A DNA stretch of 64,000 nucleotides from the NCBI GenBank assembly GCA_002213445.1, contig NJIE01000024.1, positions 62,001 to 126,000 on the forward strand, given 5' to 3'. This document shows positions 43,444-62,741 of the stretch, piece after piece. The notes under the pieces are model-generated. The model saw only the letters and a list, made by a program, of their open reading frames with translations. It ran no database searches and was not told the origin of the DNA. Within the stretch, counting starts at the first letter, position 1. Each line of letters opens with the position of its first letter. Made by a program: the position numbers and the translations under genes. Source of the stretch: Xenophilus sp. AP218F (lineage in GTDB: Bacteria > Pseudomonadota > Gammaproteobacteria > Burkholderiales > Chromobacteriaceae).

Positions 43444-44250
43444 ATGGCAGCGGTAAGGCCGGGCAACCACAGCCCAATGCGGCGTGGCTGGAAAATCATG
43501 CGCAACTCTGTGCATGCCCTTTTCCTGCGCGAGCTGAAAACACGATTCGGCGAATACCGGCTGGGCTACCTGTGGGCGCTGCTGGAACCCGTCGCGCATA
43601 TGGTGGTGATGCTGGGCATACTCGGCTACCTGATGCATCGCGTCATGCCGGATATCTCTTTCCCGTTATTCCTGATCTGCGGCATTGTTCCCTATTCATT
43701 GTTCTCCAACGTTGCCACCCGCTCTCTTAACGCCATGGACGCCAACCGCGGCTTGTTCAGCTATCGCCCCGTCCATCCAGTCGATGCGCTTCTAGCCCGA
43801 ACACTACTGGAGTTGTTAATCCAGAGCGCTTGCTTTGTCGTACTGCTTCTCTGCCTGCGGCTTCTCGGCGAGCCTATGGTTTTCGACGCTATACCGCAAA
43901 TAGTCATGATCTGGTTAGCGTTAACCATCCTATCCCAGGGCATTGGCTTCACCTTCATGGTGCTAGGACACAGCTTCAAGGCTGCGGACAAGATTTTGCC
44001 TATCTTGATCCGGCCCATGTATTTCGCCAGCGGCGTGATGTTTCCCCTGCATATCATTCCTTCCGAGTATCGCTGGTTGGTCGACTGGAATCCCTTGCTT
44101 CATGCCTTTGAACTCATGCGGCACACTCTTTCTCCAAGCTACCCCTTATACGGAGTCAGCCTTACCTATCTCTGGCTCTGCTCGCTGATCTGTATGTTCA
44201 GCGGCTTGCTGCTTTACAAGGGCCGCGAACCGGCCATGCTCCGCTCATGA
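43444..44250 (+). CDS. kpsM: Capsule polysaccharide ABC transporter, permease
   Basis: A 268-residue ABC-2 type permease of the KpsM/CtrC/BexB group. ALFLRELKTRFGEYRLGYLWALLEP (seen in pieces), MHRVMPDISFPLFLICGIVPY and YRPVHPVDALLARTLLE closely follow the known family pattern; six membrane helices are predicted. With KpsT it moves the lipid-linked capsule chain across the inner membrane. An internal ATG at 43477 would give a start closer to E. coli KpsM. Its stop overlaps the kpsT ATG. It is the first gene of the locus. Confidence 0.93.
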   Translation: MAAVRPGNHSPMRRGWKIMRNSVHALFLRELKTRFGEYRLGYLWALLEPVAHMVVMLGILGYLMHRVMPDISFPLFLICGIVPYSLFSNVATRSLNAMDANRGLFSYRPVHPVDALLARTLLELLIQSACFVVLLLCLRLLGEPMVFDAIPQIVMIWLALTILSQGIGFTFMVLGHSFKAADKILPILIRPMYFASGVMFPLHIIPSEYRWLVDWNPLLHAFELMRHTLSPSYPLYGVSLTYLWLCSLICMFSGLLLYKGREPAMLRS

Positions 44251-44918
44251 TCAAGATCCGCAACCTGACCAAGTCCTACCGCACGCCCAGCGGCCGGCAT
44301 TATGTGTTCAAGAATCTCAACCTGGACATTCCATCCGGCGTCAGCGTCGGCTTGATCGGCCGCAATGGCGCCGGCAAATCCACGCTGTTGCGCATCATCG
44401 GCGGCATGGACAGGCCAGACAGAGGCCAAGTCGATACCGACTCCAGCATCTCCTGGCCAGTGGGGCTGGCCAGCGGTTTTCAGGGCAGCATGACTGGGCG
44501 GGAAAACGTCAAGTTCGTCGCCCGGCTCTATGCAGAAAAGCACGAACTGCGCGACAAGGTCGCCTTTGTGGAAGCCTTTGCCGAACTCGGCAAGCATTTC
44601 GACATGCCAATCAAAACTTATTCATCTGGCATGCGATCCAGGCTGGGCTTTGGCCTCTCCATGGCCTTTGATTTCGATTACTACCTGATCGACGAGGTCA
44701 CCGCCGTAGGCGATGCCAGCTTTCGAGGCAAAAGCGCCAGATTGATAGAAGAAAAACGCCAACGCAGCCAGTTCTTGATGGTTTCGCACGGCATGGACGA
44801 AATCAAACGCTTCTGCGACGCCGCGCTGCTGATAGGCCGCAGCGGCGTCCATTATTTCAACGATATCGACGAGGCCATTGCGGCCTACGGGAAAGAAGAA
44901 GATGTTCAGGTGGCTTGA
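44247..44918 (+). CDS. kpsT: Capsule polysaccharide ABC transporter, ATPase
   Basis: A 223-residue ABC ATPase. It has Walker A GRNGAGKST, the KpsT-type SGVSVGLIGRNG start, signature YSSGMRSRLGF and Walker B YYLIDEVTAVGD. It powers export through KpsM. It overlaps kpsM (ATGA) and overlaps the start of the next gene by 17 bp, so the exporter genes are translationally linked. Confidence 0.94.
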   Translation: MIKIRNLTKSYRTPSGRHYVFKNLNLDIPSGVSVGLIGRNGAGKSTLLRIIGGMDRPDRGQVDTDSSISWPVGLASGFQGSMTGRENVKFVARLYAEKHELRDKVAFVEAFAELGKHFDMPIKTYSSGMRSRLGFGLSMAFDFDYYLIDEVTAVGDASFRGKSARLIEEKRQRSQFLMVSHGMDEIKRFCDAALLIGRSGVHYFNDIDEAIAAYGKEEDVQVA

Positions 44919-46098
44919 CAACCTACGCACCGCAAAATCGCTGCAACCCGGACCGGATGGCGCTGCCGCCTTGCCCATGCCGGCAAACCCGGCCCCCAGC
45001 CTGCTTCAAAAATTCAGCCAGGACCGCCTGGCCCTGTTGCTGATTGTCCTGCCCGTTGCCTCGGCCAGCCTGTATTTTCTGACGCTCTCTCAGGACCGCT
45101 ACGCCAGTGAGTCCCAGGTTATCGTCAAAAGAGGCGCGGATAACAAGGGAATGAGCCTTGATCTCGGATCCTTGCTAGGCGGATCGCCGTCTACTTTGCG
45201 CGAAGACGCGATACTGCTGCAGCAATATATCCACTCCCCTGACATGCTGGCCCGGCTGGATAAAAGCCTCAATCTGAAACAAGCGTTTGGCGCAGCCGCC
45301 GGTTGGGATGTGCTGTACCGGCTCCCCGCCGACGCCAGCAAAGAGCAATTCCTGGATTATTTCCGCGCCCGGGTTGAGGCGCAGTTTGATGAAAAAACTT
45401 CTCTGCTGAAAATCCGCACCCAAGGCTTTGATCCGGTATTCGCCCAAAAACTGAATCAGGCGATCCTGGCGGAGAGCGAGCGCTTCATCAACGAGCTATC
45501 GCACAAAATCAGCCGCGAGGACGTGGCCTTCGCGCAAAGAGAAGTGGACAACGCTTACGCGCAACTCAACCAGGCCAAAGAACAATTGCTGAACTATCAG
45601 AACCGCCATGGCCTGATCGATCCCCACGCCCAGGCCCAGGCCACTGGCCAGCTGGTGGCGGAGCTGGAGGGCAAGCAAGCGCAGCTGGAAGCGGAGCTGC
45701 GCAACTTGCAAAGCTATCTGCAAGCCGACTCGCCGCAAGTGGTCGCTGCGCAAAATGCGCTAAACGCCATCAAGGCGCAAATCGCCAAAGAGAAAGCAAA
45801 ACTGGTTTCTCCGGAGGACGACAAGCTCAACCGCAAAGCCGCCCAGTTCCAGGAGATCAAAGCCCAGGTGGAATTCCGCGCCGATCTCTACAAGCTTGCC
45901 TTGACCGCGCTGGAAAAATCCAAAGTCGCCGCGGTGCACAAATTGAAGAATCTGGCGGTAATCAGCACTCCGCAACAACCGGAAGACGCCGAGTACCCGC
46001 GCAAACTATACGTGCTGGCATCGCTGCTATTCATCTGTAGCCTGCTGTACGGCACGGCGCGCCTGACCATCTCCATTATCGAAGATCACAAGATTTGA
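44902..46098 (+). CDS. kpsE: Capsule export inner-membrane protein, KpsE/CtrB type
   Basis: From the ATG at 44902 the protein has 398 residues. One membrane helix near residue 50 (LLLIVLPVASASLYFLTLS), a periplasmic Wzz/PCP part with YASESQVIVKRG, a long coiled coil (about 190-340) and a second helix near the C-terminus give the KpsE layout. It links the ABC transporter with the outer-membrane channel KpsD in group 2 capsule export. It is followed by kpsD after one base. Confidence 0.92.
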   Translation: MFRWLDNLRTAKSLQPGPDGAAALPMPANPAPSLLQKFSQDRLALLLIVLPVASASLYFLTLSQDRYASESQVIVKRGADNKGMSLDLGSLLGGSPSTLREDAILLQQYIHSPDMLARLDKSLNLKQAFGAAAGWDVLYRLPADASKEQFLDYFRARVEAQFDEKTSLLKIRTQGFDPVFAQKLNQAILAESERFINELSHKISREDVAFAQREVDNAYAQLNQAKEQLLNYQNRHGLIDPHAQAQATGQLVAELEGKQAQLEAELRNLQSYLQADSPQVVAAQNALNAIKAQIAKEKAKLVSPEDDKLNRKAAQFQEIKAQVEFRADLYKLALTALEKSKVAAVHKLKNLAVISTPQQPEDAEYPRKLYVLASLLFICSLLYGTARLTISIIEDHKI

Positions 46099-46099
46099 C

Positions 46100-47767
46100 A
46101 TGCGCCTGACACCTATCGCCCTATTGTTCGCATCCGGGGTGGCATTAGCCATGCCCAACGCCATGTCGACCCTTGGCAACTCCACAGCCGAGCTCGACCA
46201 GCTGGCCGCGCTGAAATCCCGCCAATCTGCAGTGGATGCGGCGCAACCCGCGCCAGCCATCGAACCGCAGGTGCCGATTCAGCCACCCAGCAGAATGTTC
46301 GGCTCACAACTGTTTGGCGGCGCGTTCCGCCACAGCACCGGGATGGGCTTCAATCCGGACTACCAGATCAGCATTGGCGACCGCATCGCGGTGCGGCTGT
46401 GGGGCGCCTTCATGTTTGACGGCCAGATGATCGTCGACCCCCAAGGCAATATCTTCATCCCCAACGTTGGTCCGGTAACCGTAGCCGGCACTCGCAACGG
46501 CGACCTCAACAATCTGATAGCCAACCATGTGCGCCGCGTCTACAAGGCCAATGTCAATGCTTACGCCTCGCTGGACATCGCCCAGCCGGTCAAGGTATTC
46601 GTCACCGGCTTCGTCAAGCAGCCCGGCCTGTACGGCGGCATCGCCGCCGATAGCGTGCTGAGCTATCTGGACAAGGCCGGCGGGGTGGATGCGGAGCGCG
46701 GCAGCTATGTAGACATCAGCGTACGACGCCATGGAGCGGTGCGAAAACAAATCAACCTGTATGACTTCCTGCTCAAGGGCAAGCTGGATCTGGTGCAATT
46801 TTCCGATGGCGACGTGATTGTCGTGGGTCCCCGCCAGCACACCTTCGCCGTCTCCGGAGAAGTCTTCAACAACAACGATTTCGAGTTTCCCCAAAACCGG
46901 ATCAGCGTGAACGATGCCCTGGCGATGGCCCGCCCCAAGCCAGGCGCTACCCATATCAGCATCATCCGCCGCCAAGGCAGCGAAAAAACCAGCGAATACT
47001 ACCCGCTGGCTGCCGCGGGAGCGGTGCAACTGAATGACGGAGACCAGCTGAGCGTTACCGCCGACCGCTACGCCGGCACCATCCAGGTGCGGGTAGAAGG
47101 CGCTCACTCCGGCGAACACGCCATCGTCTTGCCATATGGAGCCACCATGGCCGACGTCTTGGCCAAGGTCCGCGCCAGCAGCATGTCCCAAATCAACGCG
47201 ATCCAGCTATTCCGCAAATCCGTCGCCGAGCGCCAAAAAGCCATGCTGGCCCTGTCTCTGCAAAAGCTGCAGGAAACCGCCTTCTCCGCCCGTTCCTCCA
47301 CCAAGGAGGAGGCCGACCTGCGCACTCGCGAAGCCGAGCTGATAGAACGCTTCGTTGCCAAAGCGGGGAAAGTGGAGCCCAAGGGCCAGGTGGTTCTCAA
47401 CGAAAAAGCCCTGCAAACCACCCTGCTGGAAGACGGCGACGTGATCCGCATACCGGAAAAAACCAGCGTGGTGATGGTGCACGGCGATGTGCTGTTTCCC
47501 AACGCCGTCAGCTGGCAATCGGGCCTGAACGTAGGAGATTACGTAGAACAAGTCGGCGGCTACAACCAAAGCGCCGACAAATCCCGCCTGATACTCATGA
47601 GGCAAAACGGCGAAGCGCTACCTGTCAGCGCCAGCGCCAAAGTCGCCGCCGGCGACGAAGTCATGGTAATGCCGAAAATAGACAGCAAGAACATCGAAGT
47701 CACGCGCGGCATTACTCAGATTCTTTATCAGATCGCAGTAGCGGCAAAAGTAATTCTCGATTTGTAG
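46100..47767 (+). CDS. kpsD: Polysaccharide export protein, KpsD/CtrA type
   Basis: A 555-residue periplasmic/outer-membrane export protein. After a signal peptide (LLFASGVALA) comes the polysaccharide-export domain (DYQISIGDRIAVRLWG, VDPQGNIFIPNVGPV, VFVTGFVKQPGLYGG) and several SLBB-like domains (VSGEVFNNNDFEFPQ; VHGDVLFPNAVSWQSG). The absence of a lipobox cysteine fits KpsD rather than the lipoprotein Wza. It completes the envelope-spanning capsule exporter. Confidence 0.92.
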   Translation: MRLTPIALLFASGVALAMPNAMSTLGNSTAELDQLAALKSRQSAVDAAQPAPAIEPQVPIQPPSRMFGSQLFGGAFRHSTGMGFNPDYQISIGDRIAVRLWGAFMFDGQMIVDPQGNIFIPNVGPVTVAGTRNGDLNNLIANHVRRVYKANVNAYASLDIAQPVKVFVTGFVKQPGLYGGIAADSVLSYLDKAGGVDAERGSYVDISVRRHGAVRKQINLYDFLLKGKLDLVQFSDGDVIVVGPRQHTFAVSGEVFNNNDFEFPQNRISVNDALAMARPKPGATHISIIRRQGSEKTSEYYPLAAAGAVQLNDGDQLSVTADRYAGTIQVRVEGAHSGEHAIVLPYGATMADVLAKVRASSMSQINAIQLFRKSVAERQKAMLALSLQKLQETAFSARSSTKEEADLRTREAELIERFVAKAGKVEPKGQVVLNEKALQTTLLEDGDVIRIPEKTSVVMVHGDVLFPNAVSWQSGLNVGDYVEQVGGYNQSADKSRLILMRQNGEALPVSASAKVAAGDEVMVMPKIDSKNIEVTRGITQILYQIAVAAKVILDL

Positions 47768-47864: not shown

Positions 47865-49583
47865 GTGAACCGTATCATCGTTATTGGCCACCCGACATCG
47901 GGCTATGAAACAGTAGAGCACACCTTGCACCAATGCGGCATGCAGCCCGCTCAACCCTCCCGCCGAGAAAGACTTTCACCGCAAGACATCACCGCTACCT
48001 TGCGTAAAGTCCATGGCATTGCCTCCCCAGATGAGGCCACTCAAGAGGACGACATTGCTCAGGTCGATCTCAATCCACTATGGCACGGCATGGCGATGGA
48101 CTTGATGCTGGGCAATCTGGAACAGCCCCTTTGGGGCTGGGCAGACCCAGACGCCATCACTACCCTCAATTACTGGTCTGAGCTGGACCCCCGTCTAACA
48201 TTTGTGCTTGTCTACGACGAACCGCATCGAGTGCTGATGGAAGCCAGCGTCCGGCCATCCCCTCCCACGCTTGAAGACACGCAGCGACTGCTGGACAACT
48301 GGGCAGCCTACAATGGCACGCTGTTGCGCTTCTACCTGCGCCATCGCGATCGCTGCCTGCTGGTGCATGCCCAACAAGTCCGCCGCGAAGCCGGCCGCTA
48401 TGTCCAGCAGCTACAACCGATGCTGGATGCAGCCCTAAACCAGCTGCCCGAACAGAGCCCCGCCGACCTGCCCGTGCTGGCGCAAACAACCCGCGTCAGC
48501 CCAGCCCTAGTGCCAGCTCAACGCTTGAATGCCATCGCCGCGCTAACCGGACTAGATAGCGGGCTGATTGAACAGACTCTGCGAGCCAACGATACAGAAC
48601 GCTATCTGCTGGATGACATCCTGCGCACAACCCACCCCTTGAGCCTGCAACGCTACGCCGAGCTGCAAGCCTCCGCCTCCCTGCCGTTAGATCCGCCCTT
48701 ATACGCACCTACGCAAGCCACACCCGCCTGGACCGCCTGGGTACAACAGCGCGCATTGATGGCCAATCTGGCCAACCGATTGCATAGCGCATACCAACAA
48801 GTTTCAGCAGAACTGGATGACGCCCAGCGCCACCATGCTCGCTTAACCGAGCAGCACCGCGCCCAGCTTAGCCAACTGCAAAACCAACACCAACAAAGCC
48901 TGAACGAACAAGAGAAGGAAATTCAACGCAGCCGCGAAGAAGCTGAGCTATTGCAGGGTCAATTACATCAGGTGCAAGAAGAACTAGAGCAACACTACCT
49001 GCGCAAACAGGAGTTGGAAAAACGCACCGACGAGCTGGACGCGGAGCTCAAACGCCAAAATGAAGCGCATGCCAAAGCCCTAAAGGCCAGGCTAGAAAAT
49101 GCAGGCCAAGAGCAAATAAAATCTCTGCATCAGGAAAACGAGACGCTGCTCGGACGACTGCACCAAGCTCAGGAAGAACTGGAGCGCTTTTACCTCGAAA
49201 ACCAACACTTGAAAATGCAGCAAACACCTGCCAAGCCTCCACTATATGGAGCTGCCGAGCGCGTCAAACAGCAGTTGGACTATAGGCTAGGTTCTGTGAT
49301 GATAAAAAAATCACATACATTTAGCGGATGGGTTGGAATGCCTCTCGCACTGATCGCTGAAGCTCGGCTGTACAGGAAAGAAATGAAGCAAATAGATGAG
49401 AAAAATCTCCCCCCGATCCACGAGTACTATGACTCTGAAAAAGCAGAACAAACAAAGAAACACCTATCGTACCGACTGGGGTTTACCTTATTAAATAATT
49501 ATAAAACACCATTCGGCTGGACTAAACTGCCATTCTTACTTACCAGAGAGATAAGTGAGTTTAGACGCCGAAAAATGCAGTAA
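47865..49583 (+). CDS. Sulfotransferase-like/coiled-coil protein with C-terminal YRLG repeats
   Basis: A 572-residue protein with three parts. Residues 1-190 look like a degenerate sulfotransferase-type P-loop domain: IVIGHPTSGYETVEHTLHQC at the start and VLVYDEPHRVLMEASVR later; the usual GxPRSGT residues are altered, so catalysis is doubtful. Residues about 310-455 are a coiled coil. The tail has two copies of a 40-residue motif, at 470-509 (YRLGSVMIKKSHTFSGWVGMP) and 533-572 (YRLGFTLLNNYKTPFGWTKLP). It may scaffold synthesis enzymes on the exporter. The function is not established; base composition falls toward the 3' end. Confidence 0.75.
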   Translation: MNRIIVIGHPTSGYETVEHTLHQCGMQPAQPSRRERLSPQDITATLRKVHGIASPDEATQEDDIAQVDLNPLWHGMAMDLMLGNLEQPLWGWADPDAITTLNYWSELDPRLTFVLVYDEPHRVLMEASVRPSPPTLEDTQRLLDNWAAYNGTLLRFYLRHRDRCLLVHAQQVRREAGRYVQQLQPMLDAALNQLPEQSPADLPVLAQTTRVSPALVPAQRLNAIAALTGLDSGLIEQTLRANDTERYLLDDILRTTHPLSLQRYAELQASASLPLDPPLYAPTQATPAWTAWVQQRALMANLANRLHSAYQQVSAELDDAQRHHARLTEQHRAQLSQLQNQHQQSLNEQEKEIQRSREEAELLQGQLHQVQEELEQHYLRKQELEKRTDELDAELKRQNEAHAKALKARLENAGQEQIKSLHQENETLLGRLHQAQEELERFYLENQHLKMQQTPAKPPLYGAAERVKQQLDYRLGSVMIKKSHTFSGWVGMPLALIAEARLYRKEMKQIDEKNLPPIHEYYDSEKAEQTKKHLSYRLGFTLLNNYKTPFGWTKLPFLLTREISEFRRRKMQ

Positions 49584-49703: not shown

Positions 49704-52700
49704 ATGAATTTAAAAAAAGTACACCAGCTTGCCGCTGAAAATAAAATCAGCGACGCCATTGAAATTCTCGAGTCGCTCTCAATAAAGTTTCCTGAGTTTT
49801 CTTTGTACAAAGAAAAAATGGAAGGATATAGAAAGCTTTTAGGGAATAATGGTGGGAAAATATCGCCCACATCTAAAACCTCTCGCACTGCGCTTATAAA
49901 GTCACCACCAAAACAAAACGCAAATCTAGTAGAAAAAATAGCCTATGGTTCATATCTTGGCGCTTATGAGAGCACATCCAAAGCGCGAGCCTGGCTTTCA
50001 AGCTTACTAAAAGAAAATAAAGAAAACATCCAAATTCTTGTAGAGCTTGCCAAGTTAGATATGGCGGATGAACGCTTCAAGGATGCGCTTACTAAAGCCA
50101 AAATTGCAATTCGTATTGACAAGAATCAATCCGCGCCTTTTAAAATTGCAGAGCAAGCATCTATTGAATTGGGAGATTTCAAATCTGCAAATCAGTATTT
50201 TTTGGACCACCCCAAGCACAAGAATCCACCAGAGCCAAGAAAGCGTGGAAAAAACCCAACGCTAGGGAGCAATTTTGTGCTACCTCCCAATATTGGCGAA
50301 GGAAATGATTACACACACATACTGTATAAATCGAGCCTTTTTACAGCTTCGAGAGAAAAGTATACAAAGAGAGCTTCGATTATAGTACCGGTTTACAATC
50401 GCCATAAAATTCTGGCGAATACCTTGGCTGCCCTGACACATCAGACCTATCCAAATGATTTGATGGATATCATCGTTGTTGATGATGGGAGTAACGATGG
50501 CGTATTTGATGTTATAAGAAAATACGAAAGCAAATTGCATTTATACTATGGCCGCCAAATAGATAAAGGGTTTAGAGTTTCAGCGGCAAGAAATATCGGC
50601 CTAAAAATGGCAAAAGGGGACTCCATCATCCTTCTGGATGCTGATATCCTGCCATGCCCTAATGATATTGAAAACTACATGAAAATTTTACATGTAGCCG
50701 ATGATGCTGTGCTTATTGGGCATCGCCGTTATGTTGACGTGTCCAACATTACTGATGATCAAATCCTGGCAAATCCTGAAGCTGCACTAAATCTTCCGAG
50801 CATAAACCCCAATAATGATGTTGCCGATCACCGAGACACAAGCGGTGAGTCCATAGACTGGCGCCTCCCAGTATACAAGAAAACAAATAATCTAATTAAT
50901 GACCCCTGGCCGTTTACCAAGGGTGCCGCAGGAAATCTGGCATTCTCCAAAAAATTGCTTGCCAAAGCTGGACTTTTTGACGAGGAATTTACTGCGTGGG
51001 GATGTGAGGACACCGAGTTCAGCTATCGTCTTTACAATGCCGGTGCATACTTTATTCCGATGTTAAATATTGTTTCCCTTCACCAAGAGCCGTTAGGAAA
51101 TAAGACTGAGAATCCATCCACCGCAGGTGAGAGTTTCCGAGCAGCTGGCCATAGATTTACCAAAAATTTACTAGCAAAGAAATGTCCATCACCCGTAACA
51201 CGAAAATATAGCGAGCATAAAGATTTCACCGTTCCAAAAGTCTCAATATATATACCTGCTTACAACGCGGAACAGTATATTGTTGATGCTATCAACAGCT
51301 GCCTGAAGCAGAATTTTGATGATTTAGAAATTTGCATTTGTAATGATGGATCAACAGACAATACGCTAGATGTTCTATCAAGGAATTTCGGCAACAACCC
51401 GAAAGTACGCTGGGTTACACAGCCAAACTCTGGCATTGGCGCTGCAACCAATACGGCTATTGCCATGTGCCGCGGACTTTACATTGGACAACTTGATGCA
51501 GATGATCTGCTTAAGCAAGGTGCCGTTCGCGCTTGCGTGCAAGTTCTTGATTCAATGGCAGTTGATGCTGTTTATACTGACTGTGATTACATTGATAGCC
51601 ATGGAAATTATATTCGGGATGGCTGGTGCGGAGGGGAGTTCGAAAAGGAATGGATGGCAACCGGTATGATTGCTACACATTTCAGAATGTTCCGGAAACG
51701 TACTTGGAATCGTACCAGCGGCTGCAATGAAAGAATTAAAAATGCAGTGGATCTAGACTTATGGCTTAAGTTAAACGAAAAAGCTAAAATCCATCACATA
51801 CATGATGTTTTTTATAGCTATCGCTGGCATGGTACCAACACATCCATTAGAGAGAGAAAACTTCAAGAAAAGAACCATTTGAGAGTAGTTGAAGATAGCC
51901 TCTCAAGAATTGGAATGAGCCGATACTGGCAGGTAAAGTCTACGGGAAACAAACTAAACCCAAGAGAATTCCAGATTGCAGAAATAGAACAACCGGTAGC
52001 CGTTACACCCAAAGACATAATAATCTTAATTCCTACATGCCTAAAATATAAGAATAAGGCCGCAGCAGTCCGGGATACATGGAAAAAAAATGCCGAGAAA
52101 ATAGGCTTCCGCTGCTTTTTCTTGATGGGAGACCCCACTATTGACATAGCCAAGGTCCAAGATGACACAATATATGTCCCCTGCCGAGATGACTATGAGT
52201 CTTTACTAGTAAAACTTTGCATGGGCTATGAGTTCATCTACAAATCAATCTCTGACTTTACTCATATCTATAAAATTGATGATGACTGCTTCTTGAACCT
52301 AGACAAGCTTGTCAAAGATATTCTCCCCCAATTAGCCTATTTACAATATGCGGGAGGTGCAACACACCCCAAGGGTGCAAAAATGAACAACAAGTGGCAC
52401 TTTGGGAAATGCAGCGACGCTAATTTCGACAAGCCATATAAATTTGACAAAGCCCCCTATGAATTTGCCAAAGGGGGTTATGGCTATTTCCTCAGAAAAG
52501 ACATACTGCCATTGATATATCAAAAAAAAGATGAGCTCTTATCTGAGATAGATAATCACATTTACTCATTCGAGGATGTGAGAATTTCTGAAATACTAGG
52601 ATCAAAAAATATACTAGCAAAGCTATTAAAAAATTATCACATCGGACGAAATGGCGACGCACCCCCGGAAAATTTAACTGTTATATTTGACATTTCAAAC

Positions 52701-52778
52701 CCTTCAGAAATAAAAGACCTGAATGAATCAAAAAAAACGAGAAGATTAATTGAGCAGCCATCTCTATCTGCACTCTGA
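49704..52778 (+). CDS. Three-domain glycosyltransferase: two GT2 domains (chondroitin/hyaluronan synthase-like) plus GT31-like domain
   Basis: A 1024-residue protein. An N-terminal helical/TPR-like region (1-220) is followed by GT2 domain A (about 224-460; SIIVPVYNRHKIL, DVVDDGS-like VVDDGS, LLDADI at 311-316, WGCEDTEFSYRLYNAG), GT2 domain B (about 511-745; VSIYIPAYNAEQYI, CICNDGSTDNTLDVL, GQLDADD at 595-601) and a third domain (about 770-985). A and B, including WGxED, YHQEP-like LHQEPLG, and HFRMF, line up with Pasteurella PmHAS/PmCS and E. coli KfoC, which add GlcA and HexNAc alternately. The third has GT31 marks: AAVRDTW, KIDDDCFLN at 857-865 and FEDVRISEI. The AT-rich gene lacks a clear ribosome site. 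The polymer identity is inferred. Confidence 0.85.
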   Translation: MNLKKVHQLAAENKISDAIEILESLSIKFPEFSLYKEKMEGYRKLLGNNGGKISPTSKTSRTALIKSPPKQNANLVEKIAYGSYLGAYESTSKARAWLSSLLKENKENIQILVELAKLDMADERFKDALTKAKIAIRIDKNQSAPFKIAEQASIELGDFKSANQYFLDHPKHKNPPEPRKRGKNPTLGSNFVLPPNIGEGNDYTHILYKSSLFTASREKYTKRASIIVPVYNRHKILANTLAALTHQTYPNDLMDIIVVDDGSNDGVFDVIRKYESKLHLYYGRQIDKGFRVSAARNIGLKMAKGDSIILLDADILPCPNDIENYMKILHVADDAVLIGHRRYVDVSNITDDQILANPEAALNLPSINPNNDVADHRDTSGESIDWRLPVYKKTNNLINDPWPFTKGAAGNLAFSKKLLAKAGLFDEEFTAWGCEDTEFSYRLYNAGAYFIPMLNIVSLHQEPLGNKTENPSTAGESFRAAGHRFTKNLLAKKCPSPVTRKYSEHKDFTVPKVSIYIPAYNAEQYIVDAINSCLKQNFDDLEICICNDGSTDNTLDVLSRNFGNNPKVRWVTQPNSGIGAATNTAIAMCRGLYIGQLDADDLLKQGAVRACVQVLDSMAVDAVYTDCDYIDSHGNYIRDGWCGGEFEKEWMATGMIATHFRMFRKRTWNRTSGCNERIKNAVDLDLWLKLNEKAKIHHIHDVFYSYRWHGTNTSIRERKLQEKNHLRVVEDSLSRIGMSRYWQVKSTGNKLNPREFQIAEIEQPVAVTPKDIIILIPTCLKYKNKAAAVRDTWKKNAEKIGFRCFFLMGDPTIDIAKVQDDTIYVPCRDDYESLLVKLCMGYEFIYKSISDFTHIYKIDDDCFLNLDKLVKDILPQLAYLQYAGGATHPKGAKMNNKWHFGKCSDANFDKPYKFDKAPYEFAKGGYGYFLRKDILPLIYQKKDELLSEIDNHIYSFEDVRISEILGSKNILAKLLKNYHIGRNGDAPPENLTVIFDISNPSEIKDLNESKKTRRLIEQPSLSAL

Positions 52779-52991
52779 TTCCAATCGGTTCATTACAAAA
52801 TTCATTTGCCTAATTTTTTCACTATCGCCTGCATGTAACGTGGAGATCAGTTTTAATCTGCGGAAATCAACTTTAGCCACTTACCAATACTTTACTCATC
52901 AATTTTATACCACTTTTCGCCTTGCCATATATAGAAATGTTTTATTATAGGCACCAAAAGGGATATTGTGCATAAATCAAAAAGGAACCTA

Positions 52992-53894
52992 ATGCCATCT
53001 ACAGAAAAACCTCAAATTTCAATCTGCACTATTACGTATGAAGATGAATTTTCCTTGCTTTTTATTCAAGCAAAATCAATTGCGAAATATGTAGACCCCT
53101 CTCTGGTAAAAGAAATATTCATAATTACAAATAACGCAATAACCGGGAGGAATGAAAAATACTTGGAAGGGGCCATAGAAATACTGAAGAAGCACGGCTT
53201 TCATGTGAAGAGAAGCCACTGCTCTGACCTAATCCCGCAAGACAGAATTATTCATGGCGGAGACTGGCGCACACAGCAGATCCTGAAATTATGGATTGCG
53301 AGAGAAATTTCCACCCCTTGGTATATGGTATTAGACAGCAAAAATCACTTCATTCGCCCAATAAATAAAAATATACTATTCCACAATGGAAAGGCAATTT
53401 CATTTCTTTGGCAATGTAGTGAGGCATTAAAGCCATGGCTAAAAGCTTCTGCAAAAGCAATTGACTTTGAGTTAATTAATGTAGAATCGCCATCAATGCC
53501 TACGGCCACTCCGTATATATTAAACACATTATTCACTCAAAATCTGCTTTCAGATATCAAACCCGATATAATTGAGCTATTCAATAAGCATCGGCAAGCA
53601 ACCGAGTTTTTCTTGTATTTTAGCTATATACAAAAAAAGGGAGTTATGGAGGACTTGTATAGCTTTGGAACGCAGTTCTATGCAACATTCTTTAACTCTT
53701 ACCCAAGCACAGGAGAGCAAATGAATTCATTAGTTAACCACGCAGCGCTCCCATCAACATTTTCAGTTGGCATTCACAGGAATAGATTTAGAATCGGCGA
53801 TAAATTCGTCCTAAAATTTGCTAAAGAATTATGGTTAAAAGAAGGTTTTATTGATACTGAAGATGAGTTCAACGAAATTTCGGCGAGCATTTAA
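52992..53894 (+). CDS. DUF6492-type putative glycosyltransferase
   Basis: From the ATG at 52992 (AAGGA upstream) the protein has 300 residues. It begins QISICTITYEDEFSLLFIQAKSIAKYV and later has WYMVLDSKNHFIRPI, the block I associate with DUF6492 proteins found in polysaccharide loci. It is probably a GT-A-like sugar transferase, with the LDSKNH stretch in the place of a metal-binding motif. A GTG at 52968 would extend it by 8 residues. It is AT-rich like the preceding gene; the 213 bp between them contain nothing recognisable. Confidence 0.7.
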   Translation: MPSTEKPQISICTITYEDEFSLLFIQAKSIAKYVDPSLVKEIFIITNNAITGRNEKYLEGAIEILKKHGFHVKRSHCSDLIPQDRIIHGGDWRTQQILKLWIAREISTPWYMVLDSKNHFIRPINKNILFHNGKAISFLWQCSEALKPWLKASAKAIDFELINVESPSMPTATPYILNTLFTQNLLSDIKPDIIELFNKHRQATEFFLYFSYIQKKGVMEDLYSFGTQFYATFFNSYPSTGEQMNSLVNHAALPSTFSVGIHRNRFRIGDKFVLKFAKELWLKEGFIDTEDEFNEISASI

Positions 53895-53924: not shown

Positions 53925-55094
53925 ATGAAAATTACTATCGCCGGCACAGGTTATGTCGGCCTCTCTAACGCCATACTACTGGCGCAACACCACAACGTGG
54001 TGGCGCTGGATATTGACTATACCAAGGTACAGATGATCAATGACCGGCTGTCGCCTATTGCGGACGCCGAAATCAAATACTTTCTGGCAGAAAAACCACT
54101 CAAGCTGCACGCCACGCTGGACAAGCAGCAGGCCTATCGTGACGCAGACTTTGTCATCATCGCCACGCCAACGGATTACGACCCGGTCAGCAACTACTTC
54201 AATACCTCGTCGGTGGAGGCAGTGATACGGGACGTGATGGCCATAAACCCGCGAGCGGTGATGGTGATCAAGTCCACTATTCCGGTTGGGTTTACCGAAC
54301 GGCTCAAGCGCGAGCTGGGCTGCGACAATCTGATCTTCTCGCCGGAGTTTCTGCGCGAGGGCAAGGCGCTGCACGACAATTTGCATCCTTCGCGCATCGT
54401 GGTGGGCGAGCGTTCGGAACGCGGCCAGCAATTTGCCAACTTGCTGTGCGAAGGCGCCATCCGCCAGGATATCCCGGTATTGCTGACCGACAATACCGAG
54501 GCGGAGGCGATCAAGCTGTTTGCCAATACCTATCTGGCCATGCGCGTGGCCTATTTCAACGAGCTGGATACCTACGCGGCCATCCATGGTCTGGATGCGC
54601 GCCAGATCATTGAGGGCGTGGGACTGGACCCGCGCATTGGTGCCCATTACAACAATCCGTCATTTGGCTACGGCGGCTATTGTCTGCCCAAGGATACCAA
54701 GCAGCTGCTGGCCAATTACCAGGATGTGCCGCAAAACCTGATCCGCGCCATTGTGGATGCCAATACCACGCGCAAAGATTTTGTGGCGGAAGACATCCTT
54801 CGCCGCCAACCCAAAATCGTGGGAATACACCGCCTGATCATGAAGGCCGGTAGCGACAATTTCCGCGCCAGCAGTGTGCAGGGCATCATGAAGCGGCTGA
54901 AGGCCAAGGGGGTGGAAGTGGTGATCTACGAACCTGCGCTGAAAGAGGACGCTTTTTTCAACTCGCGGGTGGTTCGTGATCTTGCCAGTTTCAAACAACT
55001 GGCTGATGTGATTGTGGCCAACCGCCGCGTACCCGAGCTGGCCGATGTGGCCGACAAGGTATATACCCGCGACCTGTTTGGCGGGGATGCCTGA
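53925..55094 (+). CDS. ugd: UDP-glucose 6-dehydrogenase
   Basis: A 389-residue NAD-dependent sugar-nucleotide dehydrogenase. It starts [20 protein letters not shown] (Rossmann), has [20 protein letters not shown] and the catalytic cysteine in [14 protein letters not shown]. The short length is that of capsule-locus enzymes such as KfiD and HasB. It oxidises UDP-glucose to UDP-glucuronate, the precursor expected by a glycosaminoglycan-type polymerase. Here base composition returns to normal, so the AT-rich cassette ends just before it. Confidence 0.95.
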
Positions 55095-55109: not shown

Positions 55110-56594
55110 ATGCTGAACAGGCTGCGCTTCAACTGGCATTACCGGCGCAAGCATTTTGTCCGTGCGCTGGCGTACTCGGGCCTGGGTACGCGCACAGGGT
55201 TTTCCGGTAAAACGCTGTGGGCACTGTACCAGGTGGGCATGCTGGCAACCGTGGCGCAAACCACGAAAGCCCCCTCAGGCCTGCGCGGGCGGTTTGCCCA
55301 AACGGTTGCCCTGGCAGCTTGCGGGCAGCCGGAAGAGGCCCGACGCGGGCTGGCGCGCATGCGTCGGCACGCGGGCTGGCGTGGTTGTCTGGCGCCGCTG
55401 TCAAAAGCGTTGGCACCTTATCTGCCGGAAGAAGCTTTGCAGCTGGCGGAAAAATCGGGCAAGACCGGGCCGGGCTTGCGCCTGGCTCTGCTGCTGGCCA
55501 ATGGGCATCAGGCCGATGCCAAAGCATTGCTGGATAGCCAGTCCAAACTAGCAGCAAAGACAGAGCCCGAGCTGCATCTGCTGCGCACCAATGCCCTGAG
55601 TGGCTCACCGAGTGAACAACTGCAACGACTGAATGCCTACCTGGCAACCTACAATATTGCGCCATTGCATTTGCTGGATGCCTCCCTACCGCCTTCGCCG
55701 TTCAACGTCGGGGCTGCGCCGCGCGCCCAAACCGCAACCGGCCCGCTGGTAACGGTGCTGATGACAACCTATCGCACCGGCAATCTGGCGATAGCCGCCA
55801 TTCAGTCCATCCTGCAACAGAGCTACACCAATCTGGAACTGATCATCATTGATGATGGCAGCGACGACTCTACGGTAGATCTGATAACGGCACAGACGGC
55901 GCTGGACTCAAGAGTCAGGATCGTACAGTTAGCAGACAATATGGGTACCTACGCGGCCAAACTGATAGGACTGTCCCAGGCCAGGGGCGAGTTTGTCACC
56001 TGTCAGGATTCTGACGACTGGGCGCACCCTGAGAAGATTGAGCGTCAGTTGGCACCGCTGCTACAGGACGAGCAATTGGTCTGTACGGTATCCAATTGGG
56101 TACGCATGAGGAGCGACGGCTCATTTTATTCGCGCATGGTTTACCCGCTGACCAGGCTGAACCCCTCGTCACCGTTGTTCCGCCGCCAGCGCGTAGTCGA
56201 AACTACTGGGGCCTGGGATTGCGTGCGTACCGGCGCCGATAGCGAATTTCTGGCCCGGTTGAAGCTGGTTTTTGGCCCGAACGCGGTGAAAAAGATCAAT
56301 CAACCGCTGGTTCTGGGCAGCCACAGACCTGACTCGTTGATGACGGCCAGTGCTACCGGCTATTCGACGTCCGGTGTTTCTCGACCACGCCTGGCGTATT
56401 GGGAAAGCTGGAATCGCTGGCATATCCACTGCCTAGCCGCAGGCAAAGTGCCGATGATGTCTTTGAATCAGCAAGACCCGGCAATGTCACGCCCCTTCGT
56501 TGCGCCCGAAGCATTGCAAATATGTGCGCAATCCATTCCGGCGGAGCTGTATCAGAAAATCATCGCCAATTACCCTCTTCCCCACTATTGCTGA
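55110..56594 (+). CDS. GT2 glycosyltransferase with helical N-terminal region
   Basis: A 494-residue protein. Residues 1-200 are helical and repeat-like ([37 protein letters not shown]). Residues about 210-400 are a GT2 domain: [40 protein letters not shown] and [19 protein letters not shown], which carry the nucleotide and metal aspartates. The donor and acceptor are unknown; it may add a side branch or start the chain. It lies 15 bp after ugd, in the same operon. Confidence 0.85.
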
Positions 56595-56634
56595 GCGCAG
56601 CTCTAATCATTTCTGCCAAAGCAAAATTTTTGAA

Positions 56635-57528
56635 ATGAAAACTATGACAAACAACACCAATTTCAAGATCAAAAAAGCCATTTTCCCGGTTGCCGGCATG
56701 GGCACTCGCTTCTTGCCCGCTACCAAAGCCAGCCCAAAAGAAATGCTGCCCATTGTTGACAAGCCGCTGATCCAGTACGCGGTGGAAGAAGCGGTAGCCG
56801 CTGGCATCACCGAACTGGTGTTCATTACCGGCCGCAACAAGCGCAGCATTGAAGATCACTTCGACAAAGCCTACGAACTCGAAACCGAACTCGAGATTCG
56901 CAACAAACATAAGCTGCTGCAACTGACGCAAGACATTATTCCCCCCAACGTGTCCTGCCTGTATATCCGCCAGCCGGAAGCGCTAGGTTTGGGCCATGCC
57001 GTGCTGTGCGCGCAACCTGCCGTGGGCGACGAGCCTTTCGCCGTGATCCTGGCCGATGATCTGATGGACAGCGAACCGGGGGCGCTGATGCAGATGGTGA
57101 AACTGTACGAACAGCAAGCGACTTCGATTCTCGGCGTGGAAGATGTGCCGCGCGAAGCGACCGGCTCCTACGGCATCGTAGAAACCCGCCTTGCCGACGA
57201 CGGCGTGCAGCGGGTTTGCAGTATCGTTGAAAAACCTCATCCCGACGTTGCTCCCTCGACCTTGGCCGTGGTGGGTCGTTACATTCTGACCCCTCGCATA
57301 TTCGACAAGCTTAAAAAAGTACAACCCGGGGCTGGCGGCGAGATCCAGCTAACGGATGGGATCGCAGCGCTGATGAAAGACGAATGCGTGCTGGCGATGC
57401 CGCTGGCAGGCACGCGCTACGATTGCGGCTCCAAATTGGGCTACTTGAAAGCCACAGTCAATTTCGGGCTCAAGCATCCGGAAACACGCCAGGCCTTCTC
57501 CAAACATCTGGCTGAAATCGAACTGTGA
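56635..57528 (+). CDS. galU: UTP-glucose-1-phosphate uridylyltransferase
   Basis: From the ATG at 56635 the enzyme has 297 residues: [24 protein letters not shown] (in pieces, the nucleotide loop), [32 protein letters not shown] and [10 protein letters not shown]. It makes UDP-glucose, feeding the neighbouring ugd. The ATG at 56644 is an alternative start. Its stop overlaps the GTG start of kpsC (GTGA), so capsule precursor supply and chain initiation are coupled. Confidence 0.95.
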
Positions 57529-59555
57529 CCGTCGCCATCTTCTCCTCAGGCATCGCCCGCATCCCGCATCTGGCAGCCTTGCTGGGGCTGCCAGTGCGGC
57601 ACTTCCGTAGCCAAGGAACATCGGATACGACCACACTGACTGCGGTAGCTGGCTGGGGGTTGCGGCCATCGTCCCGGCGCGCGCAAGCGTTTGCCCGCGC
57701 GCGCGCGCTTCCCTACTGGTCGCTTGAGGATGGGTTTCTGCGCTCGCTGGGCTTGGGCGTGGATGGAACCCCGCCGCTATCCATCGTGCGAGACGATATC
57801 GGCATCTATTACGATGCGACCCGCCCTTCCCGGTTGGAAGAGATGCTGAACACCTCCCAACTGACTGACGAGCAACAGCGGGAGGCTGCCAAGGGACTGG
57901 AATGGATACGATGCCACCGCTTATCCAAATACAATCACGCACCGCGACTGACACTGCCCAAACGAGGCGATAAGCCCCGCGTGTTGGTGCTGGATCAAAC
58001 CGAGGGCGATGTTTCGGTGCGGCTGGGCGGGGCCGGAGCGGCGGCATTTGCCGACATGCTGGCATCCGCCCGCCGGGAACACCCTGACGCCGAGTTATGG
58101 GTCAAAACACACCCGGACGTGGTGGCCGGCAAAAAGCGGGGATATCTGCCTAAAGTCCCGGATGGCATCAGTCTGCAGGCCGAAGACATCTGCCCGCAAA
58201 CGCTGCTGTCCCAGGTGGATGTGGTTTATACGGCTACCTCGCATATGGGTTTTGAAGCGCTGGTAGCGGGCTGCAAGGTGGTCTGCTTCGGGATGCCCTG
58301 GTATGCCGGCTGGGGCTTGACCGATGACAGACATCCGGAGATGCCGGCGCTGCGCCAGCGCCGCCGCCGTCAATGCACGCTGGAAGAGTTGTTTCACGCC
58401 GCTTATCTGCGCTATGCCCGTTATATTCAGCCGGAAACCGGCGAGCCGGGTTCTTTTTTCGACGTGGCGGAATGGATACGCCTCAATCGCGAGCTGCGCG
58501 AACAATCCAGCGGCACGCTGTGGTGCGTCGGCATGACCTTGTGGAAGCGCGCTGTGGTATGGCCTTTCCTCAAATCGCCGGCCAATCGGCTGCGCTTTGT
58601 CCGCAAGTTGCCGCAACATTTGCCGGAGAACAGCAAGGTGGTGGCCTGGGGCATGAAGGCCGAGCTTCGCGAAGCATGCAGGGCAAGAAATATCCCGCTG
58701 CTGGCGATGGAGGACGGCTTTTTGCGCTCGGTCGGATTGGGCTCTCACTTGCTGCCGCCGCTGTCTTTGGTGGTGGATGGCGGCGGGCTTTATTACGCCT
58801 ATCAGTCGGACAGCGATTTGCAACGCCATCTGAATACGGCGCGCCCAAGCGCTGAGGAGTGTCAGCGGGCCAGCCGGCTGCGGGCCAGATTGGTGGCCGG
58901 CAGGATCAGCAAATACAACGTGGGCAGCGCCTTCCAGCTTGACCCCGGGGCGGCAGACAAGCTGATTGTATTGGTGCCGGGACAAGTGGAGGATGACGCC
59001 TCCATTCGTTTGGGATCGCCCGTCGTCCACAGCAACCTGGCTCTGCTCCAGGCCGCTCGGGCTGCGCGCCCTGATGCCTGGATTATCTACAAGCCGCACC
59101 CGGATGTGGTATCCGGCAATCGCGCAGGCCATATCGACGCCGGCCAATTGGCCGCGCTGGCCGATCAGGTGGTCGAAAATGCCGATATCTCGGGCTGCAT
59201 AGCCGCCGCCGACGAAATTCACACCATGACTTCGCTGGCCGGCTTTGAGGCGCTGCTGCAAGGCAAGGCCGTGCATTGCCATGGCGCGCCGTTTTATGCG
59301 GGCTGGGGCCTGACGCGCGACCACATTCCCTTGCCGCGCAGGCAGCGCCGCCTCAGCCTGGACGAGCTGGTGCACGGCGCGCTGATCGCTTACCCCCGCT
59401 ACATCATCCCCGGCAAAGCGGGATACGCCAGGGTGGAGGCGGTGGTGGATTTGCTGATGCGGCAAAAAAACGACGTGAAAGCATCGTCGCTGCGCACCAA
59501 CTGGTGCGCCAGGCAATGGCGCAAAGCCAGAGGGCTGCTGGATACCTTTTTGTGA
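57525..59555 (+). CDS. kpsC: Capsule beta-Kdo transferase KpsC
   Basis: A 676-residue protein made of two homologous halves. Each has the same series of motifs: [14 protein letters not shown] / [21 protein letters not shown] / [22 protein letters not shown] / [15 protein letters not shown], and [12 protein letters not shown] / [12 protein letters not shown]. KpsC builds the poly-beta-Kdo linker on lyso-phosphatidylglycerol on which group 2 capsules are assembled, each half having a different Kdo transferase activity. The GTG start overlaps the galU stop. Kdo precursor genes kpsF and kpsU are not in the window. Confidence 0.95.
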
Positions 59556-59695
59556 AGCCGGCCATTCAGACCCGGCAAATCCGCCAAATGCGACGTCGAT
59601 CAAACCGATCGACATGAATATGGCATTAAAATGCTGAAAGCTTGCGGTTGTTAACCGCCTTTCTATTGAAAAATAAAAGAATCGCAAAACTGATC

Positions 59696-61018
59696 ATGCT
59701 GGCCGCACAATCTCTGCTCAAACATAAACGACTGCTGCTGTTGCAAGGCCCGATGGGCAACTTCTTCAACCGATTGGCGGACTGGCTGAGCGCGCATGAC
59801 ATCGAGTCGCGCAAGGTCAATTTCAATGGCGGCGACTGGCTGTTTCATCGCCGTCCGGGCACCGCGCACTATCAGGGCAAACCTTCCAGCTTCAGCCGCT
59901 GGCTGCGTTCCTATATCCGGAAGGAAGGAATAGACGGCATTGTCTGCTTTGGCGATTGCCGGCGTCCGCACCGGGTTGCCGCGCTGGTCGCCAAGGAGAT
60001 GGGAATCGCCTTCTACGCTTTTGAAGAAGGTTACTTGCGGCCGGACTATGTGACACTGGAGGAAGGCGGCGTCAACGCCTTCTCCCAGCTGGCCAGCCAA
60101 CCTGCCCGCTACATCGAGCATGAGCCGGTTCACAGCGAACGGCCACTGCCGACTCGCCCCTCGTTCCGGCGCATGGGTCTGACCGCCATGGCCTACTACG
60201 CGGCAGGCTGGTTTCTGCGCCGACAATTCCCGCACTACCGCCATCACAAGGATTTCTCGCCATTTCGCGAGTGTTTCTTCTGGGTGCGCGCCGGTTGGCG
60301 CAAGCAGGTTTATCGGTTGACCGAGGCCAAGCTTGTCCGCCGCATCGCCGAAGAGTGGCGCGGTCAGTATTTTCTGGTTGCTTTGCAGGTTTTCAACGAC
60401 AGCCAGATCCACCAGCACAGCCACTATCAGGATATTCGCGACTTCATAGCGGAAATCATCCAGGCGTTCGCAACGCAAGCCGGCGCCGAGCATCAGCTGG
60501 TTTTCAAGCATCACCCCATGGATAGGGGTCATAGGCATTATGGTCGCTTCATTCAGGAGCAGGCCTGCCTCGCGGGCGTTGTGGAACGGGTGCACTACGT
60601 GCACGACGCCCATCTGCCGACGCTGCTGAAACGCAGCCGCGGCGTCATCACCATCAACAGCACGGTTGGTTTGTCGGCGATTCACCACGGCAAGCCCACC
60701 ATCGTCATGGGCAGGGCTTTCTACGATATTCAGGGCCTCACCTTCCAGGGAGAGCTGAAACGATTCTGGAACGAGCCTTATGCCGTCAATCAGGAGCTAT
60801 ACGGCAAACTGCGTTCCTACATGATCAAGCACACTCAGCTGAATGGCGCCTTCTTCGGCGAATCCCACTGGATGCGCCACCCCAAGTTGGCGCCGCGCGC
60901 ATCGTATTGGCAACCCGCGCTCCGGGCTGGTCAGGTCGCGGCGCTGCTGCTTTTTCTGGACATCGCCGCGGATGGCGAACTGGGCTGGTTGCTGGAATGG
61001 CTTGCCAGTTTGGGCTGA
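59696..61018 (+). CDS. kpsS: Capsule beta-Kdo transferase KpsS
   Basis: From the ATG at 59696 the protein has 440 residues with the KpsS pattern: LLLLQGPMGNFFNRLADWL, CFGDCRRPHRVAAL, AFEEGYLRPDYVTLEEGGVNA (in pieces), LQVFNDSQIHQHSHYQDIRDF and VFKHHPMDRGHRHYG. It adds the first Kdo to the phosphatidylglycerol anchor before KpsC extends it. An in-frame TTG at 59642 would lengthen it by 18 residues. It ends the capsule locus on this side, 140 bp after kpsC. Confidence 0.95.
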   Translation: MLAAQSLLKHKRLLLLQGPMGNFFNRLADWLSAHDIESRKVNFNGGDWLFHRRPGTAHYQGKPSSFSRWLRSYIRKEGIDGIVCFGDCRRPHRVAALVAKEMGIAFYAFEEGYLRPDYVTLEEGGVNAFSQLASQPARYIEHEPVHSERPLPTRPSFRRMGLTAMAYYAAGWFLRRQFPHYRHHKDFSPFRECFFWVRAGWRKQVYRLTEAKLVRRIAEEWRGQYFLVALQVFNDSQIHQHSHYQDIRDFIAEIIQAFATQAGAEHQLVFKHHPMDRGHRHYGRFIQEQACLAGVVERVHYVHDAHLPTLLKRSRGVITINSTVGLSAIHHGKPTIVMGRAFYDIQGLTFQGELKRFWNEPYAVNQELYGKLRSYMIKHTQLNGAFFGESHWMRHPKLAPRASYWQPALRAGQVAALLLFLDIAADGELGWLLEWLASLG

Positions 61019-61736: not shown

Positions 61737-62741
61737 TCACGGATAGCCTGCAGGATTCCGGCTTTGCCAGCGCCAGCTGTCGCGGCACATGTCTTCCAGC
61801 GTTTTTTCCGCCTTCCAGCCCAATAGCTTTTCCGCCGCCGCCGGATTGGCCCAGCACTCGGCGATGTCGCCCGGGCGGCGCGCCACGATGCGGTATGGCA
61901 CCTGGCAGCCGTTGACCCGCTCGAACGCCTGCACCATGTCCAGCACCGAATAACCCTTGCCGGTTCCCAGATTCACGGTCAGCAGTCCCGGCTCGCGGGC
62001 CAGCGCCTGCACCGCCTTGACGTGGCCGGCGGCCAGATCCACCACATGGATGTAGTCGCGCACGCCGGTGCCGTCGTGGGTGGGGTAGTCGCTGCCGAAT
62101 ACCTGCAGCTCCGCCAGCTTGCCGCAGGCCACCTGCGAGATGAACGGCATCAGATTGTTGGGAATGCCGTTGGGGTCTTCGCCGATGTCGCCGCTCTCAT
62201 GCGCGCCGATGGGGTTGAAATAGCGCAGCAGCGCGATATTCCAGTCCGGTTCGGCCCGGGCGAAGTCGCGCAGCATATCTTCCACGATCAGCTTGCTGCG
62301 GCCGTAGGGGTTGGTTGCCGACAACGGGAAGGATTCCGTGATCGGCACCGAAGCCGGGTTGCCGTAAACGGTGGCGGAAGAGCTGAACACGAAATTGCGC
62401 ACCCCGTGCCGCTTCATCGCCCGCAGCAGGCACAGAGTGCCGGCGACGTTGTTCTCGTAATACTCCAGCGGCTTTTCCACCGATTCGCCCACCGCCTTCA
62501 AGCCGGCGAAATGAATGACCGCCTGGATCGGGTGGCGAAACGCCTGTTCCAGCGCCTCCGGGTCGCGGATGTCGCCCTCGATGAAAGTCAGCTTCTTGCC
62601 GGCCAGTTGCTCGACGCGGCGCAAGGCTTCCGCCTTGCTGTTGCACAGATTGTCCAATACCGCCAGCTCATGGCCGGCCTCCAGCAATTGCACGCAGGTA
62701 TGCGAACCGATATAGCCGGCCCCGCCCGTCACCAAGATCAT
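61737..62741 (-). CDS. galE: UDP-glucose 4-epimerase
   Basis: From the ATG at 62741 the enzyme has 334 residues: MILVTGGAGYIGSHTCVQLL, VIHFAGLKAVGESVEKPLEYY, SSSATVYGNP, the catalytic NPYGRSKLIVE and GTGVRDYIHVVDLA. It interconverts UDP-Glc and UDP-Gal, and may also act on UDP-GlcNAc/GalNAc, which matters if the capsule contains GalNAc or galactose. An ATG at 62753 is an alternative start. It is transcribed toward the capsule locus but separated from it by a two-way terminator. Confidence 0.95.
   Translation of the reverse strand: MILVTGGAGYIGSHTCVQLLEAGHELAVLDNLCNSKAEALRRVEQLAGKKLTFIEGDIRDPEALEQAFRHPIQAVIHFAGLKAVGESVEKPLEYYENNVAGTLCLLRAMKRHGVRNFVFSSSATVYGNPASVPITESFPLSATNPYGRSKLIVEDMLRDFARAEPDWNIALLRYFNPIGAHESGDIGEDPNGIPNNLMPFISQVACGKLAELQVFGSDYPTHDGTGVRDYIHVVDLAAGHVKAVQALAREPGLLTVNLGTGKGYSVLDMVQAFERVNGCQVPYRIVARRPGDIAECWANPAAAEKLLGWKAEKTLEDMCRDSWRWQSRNPAGYP

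Follow-up and report, generated by a model that had tools for sequence, protein, structure and literature searches.

To our knowledge, no bacterial glycosaminoglycan (GAG) synthase described to date makes anything but plain hyaluronan, chondroitin or heparosan. In KfoC of Escherichia coli K4, domain A transfers GalNAc and domain B transfers GlcA, and the K4 capsule is presumably transporter-dependent with a UDP-GlcA supply, like the locus described here. Multi-domain polymerases of transporter-dependent capsules usually hold one active site per repeat sugar. GT31 enzymes are mostly inverting beta-1,3-transferases. According to a report on the human enzymes (PMC12748766), CHSY1 and CHSY3 (GT31 plus GT7) carry a GalNAc transferase domain with KfoC as a close structural homologue, the GT31 domain of CHSY3 transfers GlcA, and the partner CHPF, which lacks a DxD motif, is inactive in the human complex.

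The nearest report of sulfated GAG-like bacterial polymers that we found concerns Pontiella, with a cluster of GT2 and GT4 genes, and this 2020 paper states that prokaryotes were not known to encode GAG-active sulfotransferases (PMC7356697). A 2024 paper mentions in passing GAG sulfotransferases from pathogenic bacteria and gives the capsule of Vibrio KMM 8419 as a sulfated rhamnose-glucose polymer, not a GAG (PMC11641403), and the polysaccharide HE800 of a deep-sea bacterium is called hyaluronan-like in a further paper (PMC3705409). A first-pass annotation of the sequence studied here knew of no described enzyme of the order GT2-GT2-GT31, and we likewise found no description of such a polymerase in searches of an open-access collection that mostly lacks subscription journals.

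The window, a stretch of 64,000 nucleotides from Xenophilus sp. AP218F, carries on its plus strand an uninterrupted open reading frame from an ATG at 49704 to a stop at 52778, encoding 1024 amino acids. By Pfam, residues 225-460 and 514-643 are GT2-type domains, and residues 788-961 match Galactosyl_T (PF01762) with E 1e-11 and 45.5 bits, where the cut-off is 23; Fringe (PF02434) scored 27.6 bits, its cut-off being 21. None of the 25 NCBIfam models among the matches listed (32 matched) exceeded its own cut-off. Domain A contains DAD (312-314) and WGCED (432-436), domain B contains DAD (598-600) and HFRMF, and in domain C both DDD (859-861) and ED (957-958) are intact. The helices of the N-terminal region (Table 1) come from a full-length AF2 model of low confidence, built from four sequences (pLDDT 47) and not used for fold claims; in the counterpart of this region, TPRs are clear by Pfam in the Thiomargarita and BB31 homologues introduced below.

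The same domain order was found in Colwellia marinimaniae MTCD1, a Thiomargarita MAG and the Thiotrichales MAG BB31, and the fifth fused protein is in genome G1072. Since four other genomes, including a named strain, share it, the reading frame is not an assembly artefact, and the order is that of a small recurring family. All five GT31 domains scored over the Pfam cut-off (window 45.5, Colwellia 41.3, Thiomargarita 45.4, BB31 38.4 and G1072 30.8 bits). Identity to the window core was 65% for G1072, 60% for Colwellia, 50% for Thiomargarita, 47% for BB31 and 43% for KfoC, and the GT31 domains of the other four fused proteins were 41-51% identical to that of the window.

Table 1. Features of the capsule locus and of the synthase, in window coordinates.
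Feature	Position	Strand	Support
KpsM-like permease and KpsT-like ATPase	43444..44918	+	ABC2_membrane and ABC_tran over cut-off; NF050053 (KpsM) 176.7 bits vs 300
KpsE-like protein and Poly_export/SLBB outer-membrane export protein	44878..47767	+	TIGR01010 349 bits vs cut-off 437.5; Poly_export over cut-off
Coiled-coil protein	47865..49583	+	41% full-length homologue in E. coli pAL.H8; without Pfam support
Synthase, N-terminal helical, TPR-like region (residues 1-170)	49704..50213	+	TPR_19/TPR_14 at 79-129, below cut-off
Synthase, domain A (about 221-460), GT2, KfoC A1-like, predicted HexNAc transferase	50364..51083	+	activity by homology
Synthase, domain B (about 510-743), GT2, KfoC A2-like, predicted GlcA transferase	51231..51932	+	activity by homology
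Synthase, domain C (about 766-1010), GT31 type	51999..52733	+	Pfam, PDB profile, fold search, alignment
DUF6492 protein, second gene of AT-rich cassette	52968..53894	+	DUF6492 63.2 bits vs 22.9
UDP-glucose 6-dehydrogenase type (Ugd-type)	53925..55094	+	NF011631 705 bits vs cut-off 757; over cut-off of broader TIGR03026
GT2 protein	55110..56594	+	best PDB match heparosan synthase B, 108 bits; common to other capsule loci
GalU	56500..57528	+	TIGR01099 over cut-off, match from residue 57
Two Capsule_synth proteins, KpsC-like and KpsS-like	57525..61018	+	PF05159 322.5 and 282.7 bits
PagP-like gene, between capsule genes and GalE	61105-61638		23.6 bits vs cut-off 24
GalE-type epimerase	61737..62798	-	Cys at E. 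coli GalE Tyr299 position

Compared with the PDB, residues 189-743 of the window synthase matched KfoC (2z86/2z87) with 471 bits, the next different molecule reaching 62 bits. The identity to KfoC extended over 558 columns, the part of KfoC compared being residues 58-607. The DxD of both sites and the WGxED of domain A were present in all eight aligned cores, KfoC among them, with D312/D314, W432-G433-x-E435-D436 and D598/D600 of the window synthase kept in 8/8. The HFRMF of KfoC domain B is retained in the window, Colwellia, G1072 and the second core of G1097 and appears as HFRLF in G1102, QFRCY in Thiomargarita and PFRFY in BB31; immediately before this motif, KfoC has His and the window synthase Thr. 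Owing to these differences, specificity may vary, above all in the Thiomargarita branch. On domain A, Glyco_transf_7C exceeded the Pfam cut-off in three of the five fused proteins, scored 21.0 bits, slightly short of the cut-off of 23, in the window, and did not appear among the matches listed for G1072.

The C-terminal 275 residues alone found human B3GalT5 in the PDB (1.1e-6), and a profile of the five homologous GT31 domains matched B3GalT5 (4e-9), B3GalT6 (6e-4) and B3GNT2 (4e-3); unrelated chains began at 0.07. A model of this domain was of moderate confidence (pLDDT 56.5). In Foldseek, all 30 chains at E <= 0.001 were GT31 structures, and in the VIA fold search the first five rows were GT31, with one non-GT31 row in the tie range; TM-scores were under 0.5. 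The first fold matches, at low TM-scores, were B3GNT2, B3GalT5, B3GalT6 and the human chondroitin polymerase CHSY3-CHPF; AfGfsA, also among the matches, we counted as GT31. The GT31-domain profile scored 62-94 bits on four other bacterial GT31-type proteins, which had been found by searching with this domain, against 5.3 bits for the best of 200 shuffled sequences, so the match is not due to chance. A recent transfer of the domain from an animal to a bacterium is not favoured, since these four bacterial domains outscored the best human chain (39 bits), the two sets of scores coming from separate searches whose profiles, both built on the same five sequences, differed slightly. Within the fused proteins ED is kept in 5/5 and DDD in 4/5; the G1072 copy reads NDD and has also lost nearby glycines, for which reason it may be weak.

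Taken together, Pfam, the KfoC match and the fold search bear out the three-domain architecture proposed in the first-pass annotation, and it recurs in the small family described above. The motifs named there are all present in the translation, and the KfoC match upholds the GAG-synthase-type core and the relationship of domains A and B to such enzymes. The GT31 assignment agrees with the sequence profiles (Pfam, PDB) and with the fold found in the C-terminal part, the model being of moderate quality, and its limits, residues 770-985, were about right. The branching role that the annotation gave the third domain stays a prediction.

The KfoC-type core is rare in the genomes sampled. With thresholds set for each search, the own genome included and samples that partly overlap, core matches were found in 2/369 genomes of the class (own and G475), 1/61 of the own family (own genome counted), 1/398 of the phylum sample (own), 6/42 of the order of G475 and 2/246 of the family of C. 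marinimaniae. Searches with the GT31 domain alone gave a match only in the own genome and G248 among 300 genomes of the order, and PF01762 only in the own genome and G475 among 321 of the class. A scan of genome contigs with two short peptide patterns, both from the N-terminal fifth of the synthase, yielded at least four loci, a lower bound; three of them, in Colwellia marinimaniae MTCD1, the Thiomargarita MAG and BB31, match the window synthase from about residue 100 to the end. The fourth, a Pedobacter protein (L020) with 27% identity over 223-717, was dropped as a family member. A second gene of G475 (L017, 46-1122, minus strand), which ends at a stop near the contig edge, is 65% identical to the front of the window core over 231 residues, better than the long G475 gene, and its neighbour carries the coiled-coil motif LHQVQEELE that is also found in the window protein at 47865-49583.

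None of 939 matching plasmid records covered 80% of the window synthase, and eight records matched its GT31 part. Plasmid proteins of Thalassococcus, Sulfitobacter and Shinella share the GT31 domain, in the same range of scores to the fused-family profile, but join it to other partners (lectin-type, Glyco_tranf_2_4); the Sulfitobacter D7 protein has GT31 and two GT2 stretches. Annotated sulfotransferase genes lie near the plasmid GT31 genes in all three records inspected, of the eight. In Roseobacter plasmids, L010 (3598-7728, 1376 residues) and L012 (675-6740, 2021 residues) combine a galectin-type lectin match, below the cut-off in L012, with GT31 and Glyco_tranf_2_4, again with annotated sulfotransferase genes nearby. 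For two proteins from Roseobacter plasmids, which end in a GT4-type tail, the match lies mostly in domain B. Among viral contigs no relative of the synthase was found in two scans, one without any pattern match and the other with 55, and phage records held no match for the GT31 domain or for the 47865 protein.

Cores without GT31 were found in G1097, G1102 (both by Pfam) and G1106 (by sequence match), and G1329 is probably core-only as well, its match stopping before GT31 in a 663-residue open frame. Two loci, L038 (5883-10709, minus strand, 1608 residues) and L039 (6198-10616, minus strand, 1472 residues), each encode two tandem KfoC-type cores, and near each lies a gene joining SPASM, a weak radical-SAM match and Sulfotransfer_2. 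In a tree of ten cores, from which the first G1106 core, the two plasmid proteins and G1329 were left out, the window, Colwellia and G1072 formed one group (100/100) and Thiomargarita and BB31 another (100/100), which the core-only rows joined with a support of 84/90; KfoC was a long branch. The GT31 tree gave the same two groups. As the core-only rows group with Thiomargarita and BB31, the presence of GT31 needs two changes on the tree, and either one fusion with losses or two fusions to the core are possible.

Sulfotransferases are fused or nearby in three of the four other GT2-GT2-GT31 genomes. In BB31, Sulfotransfer_3 and Sulfotransfer_2 follow GT31 on one polypeptide of 1858 residues. The G1072 synthase is accompanied by a TPR-Stf0 sulfotransferase and by a protein in which Sulfotransfer_3, Sulfotransfer_2 and GT47 are combined. 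The Colwellia gene has as neighbours an exostosin GT47, a GT10 fucosyltransferase-type protein and a Sulfotransfer_2 protein; beyond a transposase-like gene follow two genes of GDP-fucose type, which we take to be a GDP-fucose pathway. The tail of the Thiomargarita synthase is Caps_synth-like (22.1 bits, below the cut-off of 24.5), and none of nine neighbouring ORFs scanned with Pfam was a sulfotransferase. Among the core-only relatives, sulfotransferases are fused in G1102 and nearby in G1097 and G1106. PF03567, which presumably holds the animal chondroitin and uronyl sulfotransferases, had no match in the window's own genome, nor in any of 14 control genomes. Tentatively, the GT2-GT2-GT31 polymerases could represent an undescribed bacterial GAG group making chondroitin-like chains with an extra beta-1,3-linked sugar, sulfated in several lineages and in Colwellia also fucosylated, by families that animals use, with polymerisation, GT31 transfer and sulfation on a single polypeptide in BB31.

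In the window, the synthase is preceded by KpsM-, KpsT-, KpsE- and Poly_export-type genes and the coiled-coil protein and followed, in order, by the DUF6492, Ugd-type, GT2, GalU, two Capsule_synth, PagP-like and GalE genes. These Kps-type genes, with a dehydrogenase under the cut-off of the UDP-glucose-specific model, make up a capsule locus with a UDP-GlcA supply, a role predicted for the Ugd-type gene at 53925-55094. The KpsC-like and KpsS-like proteins presumably serve linker synthesis. GalU probably starts further in than the listed TTG, as its TIGR01099 match begins well inside. The Cys of the GalE-type epimerase is shared by PDB chains 1lrk and 3enk and, we assume, permits UDP-GlcNAc/GalNAc epimerisation; a supply of UDP-GalNAc by this enzyme is possible. 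The DUF6492 protein, for which there was neither a useful PDB match nor a plasmid match, is perhaps another transferase. Close to the capsule locus, at 40293-41273, lies an LPMO_10 plus GbpA_2 protein of the chitin-binding oxygenase type.

The synthase and DUF6492 genes form an AT-rich cassette inside the Kps-type locus, with GC contents of 0.407 and 0.370 compared to 0.612 for the window and 0.54-0.63 for the other capsule-locus genes. Genome G682 keeps the frame, with 60-78% identity for KpsM-, T-, E- and D-type genes, 54% for the 55110 gene, 85% for GalU, 66% for KpsC and 59% for KpsS, but differs in the middle, which is occupied by other glycosyltransferases, a UDP-GlcNAc 2-epimerase and a sugar dehydrogenase that is only 24% like Ugd. 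The E. coli plasmid pAL.H8, of type IncY and from a pond isolate (L048, NZ_CP082350.1, 10536-31752), has a similar Kps-type frame by annotation and encodes homologues of the window proteins at 47865-49583 (41%) and 55110-56594 (53%). Since the shared frame encloses different middles in G682 and pAL.H8, the serotype-specific, variable part of the locus seems to consist of the synthase, DUF6492 and Ugd. The 55110 GT2 protein was dropped as part of the special function because it is common to loci with other cassettes. The 47865 protein had no match among the G682-stretch ORFs of at least 150 aa, and none in the 179 further genomes of the order that were searched. Its pAL.H8 homologue is annotated as 'sulfotransferase family protein' or 'DUF8374 domain-containing protein' (the latter also in RefSeq); sulfotransferase being an annotation label only, with no such Pfam match at E <= 1, this role was rejected.

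We consider it moderately likely that the window protein is a capsule polymerase whose domains A and B make a GlcA/HexNAc backbone, probably chondroitin-like, while an active GT31 domain adds a further sugar to the same chain. In this reading the capsule is of group-2 type (ABC-transporter) and the gene supplies its serotype-specific polymerase. HexNAc (probably GalNAc) and GlcA would be added in turn by domains A and B, as in KfoC, and the GT31 domain would act as an inverting beta-1,3-transferase that places one further sugar, most likely a side branch, on the chain as it grows, while the N-terminal helical region may hold the synthase to the Kps export complex. From homology and context we infer the donors, the linkages, the branch, the role of the N-terminal region and the action of the third domain on the nascent chain. 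The branch has a strong rival in a third backbone residue: in a linear trisaccharide repeat each of the three domains would add one residue. The usual rule for transporter-dependent capsule polymerases of one active site per repeat sugar speaks for such a repeat, as does the tandem pair of cores in one 1608-residue protein of G1097. However, domains A and B keep the KfoC motifs, which suggests that each still accepts the other's product, and core-only relatives exist; we prefer the branch because these two domains look little changed, and regard the trisaccharide as distinctly less probable.

It is rather unlikely that the GT31 domain is a second beta-1,3-GlcA transferase, as in CHSY1/CHSY3, or acts at the start or end of the chain, leaving the repeat unchanged, since by homology domain B already supplies GlcA transfer and the B3GalT and B3GNT2 structures score equally well or higher. 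Least probable of all, and improbable in its own right, is a catalytically dead scaffold. Its precedent is CHPF, inactive and without a DxD motif in the human complex (PMC12748766), and the changed DDD of G1072 would fit it; against this, DDD is kept in four and ED in all five fused proteins, with the other four domains 41-51% identical to that of the window.

If an active GT31 domain indeed extends a chondroitin-like chain, a polymerase with a built-in third transferase and sulfotransferase-linked relatives would offer an animal-free way to branched or sulfated chondroitin. The family would make it testable whether bacteria naturally produce chondroitin-sulfate-like polymers and hints at bacterial polysaccharides nearer to the sugars of animal connective tissue than expected. 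The domain set also bears on the kinship of the animal chondroitin synthases (GT31 plus GT7) with the bacterial ones (GT2 plus GT2).

The window synthase shares with KfoC the tandem GT2-GT2 core, the DxD of both sites and WGxED; KfoC, compared over residues 58-607, presumably lacks the GT31 domain and the long N-terminal helical region, both of which the window synthase has. With vertebrate B3GalT5, B3GalT6 and B3GNT2 the GT31 domain shares profile and fold matches and the DxD and ED motifs, but at about 20% identity, and those enzymes are, we assume, not fused to GT2 domains. Human CHSY1 and CHSY3 likewise hold a GT31 domain and a KfoC-like GalNAc transferase domain, but with GT31 first, without a second GT2 domain, and as Golgi proteins in heterodimers with CHPF. 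Their layout, an N-terminal GT31 followed by a C-terminal GT7, was not found in the window protein, where GT31 is C-terminal and Glyco_transf_7C scores under the cut-off. The window protein may unite a KfoC-type core with the GT31 type that animals use for chondroitin polymerisation.
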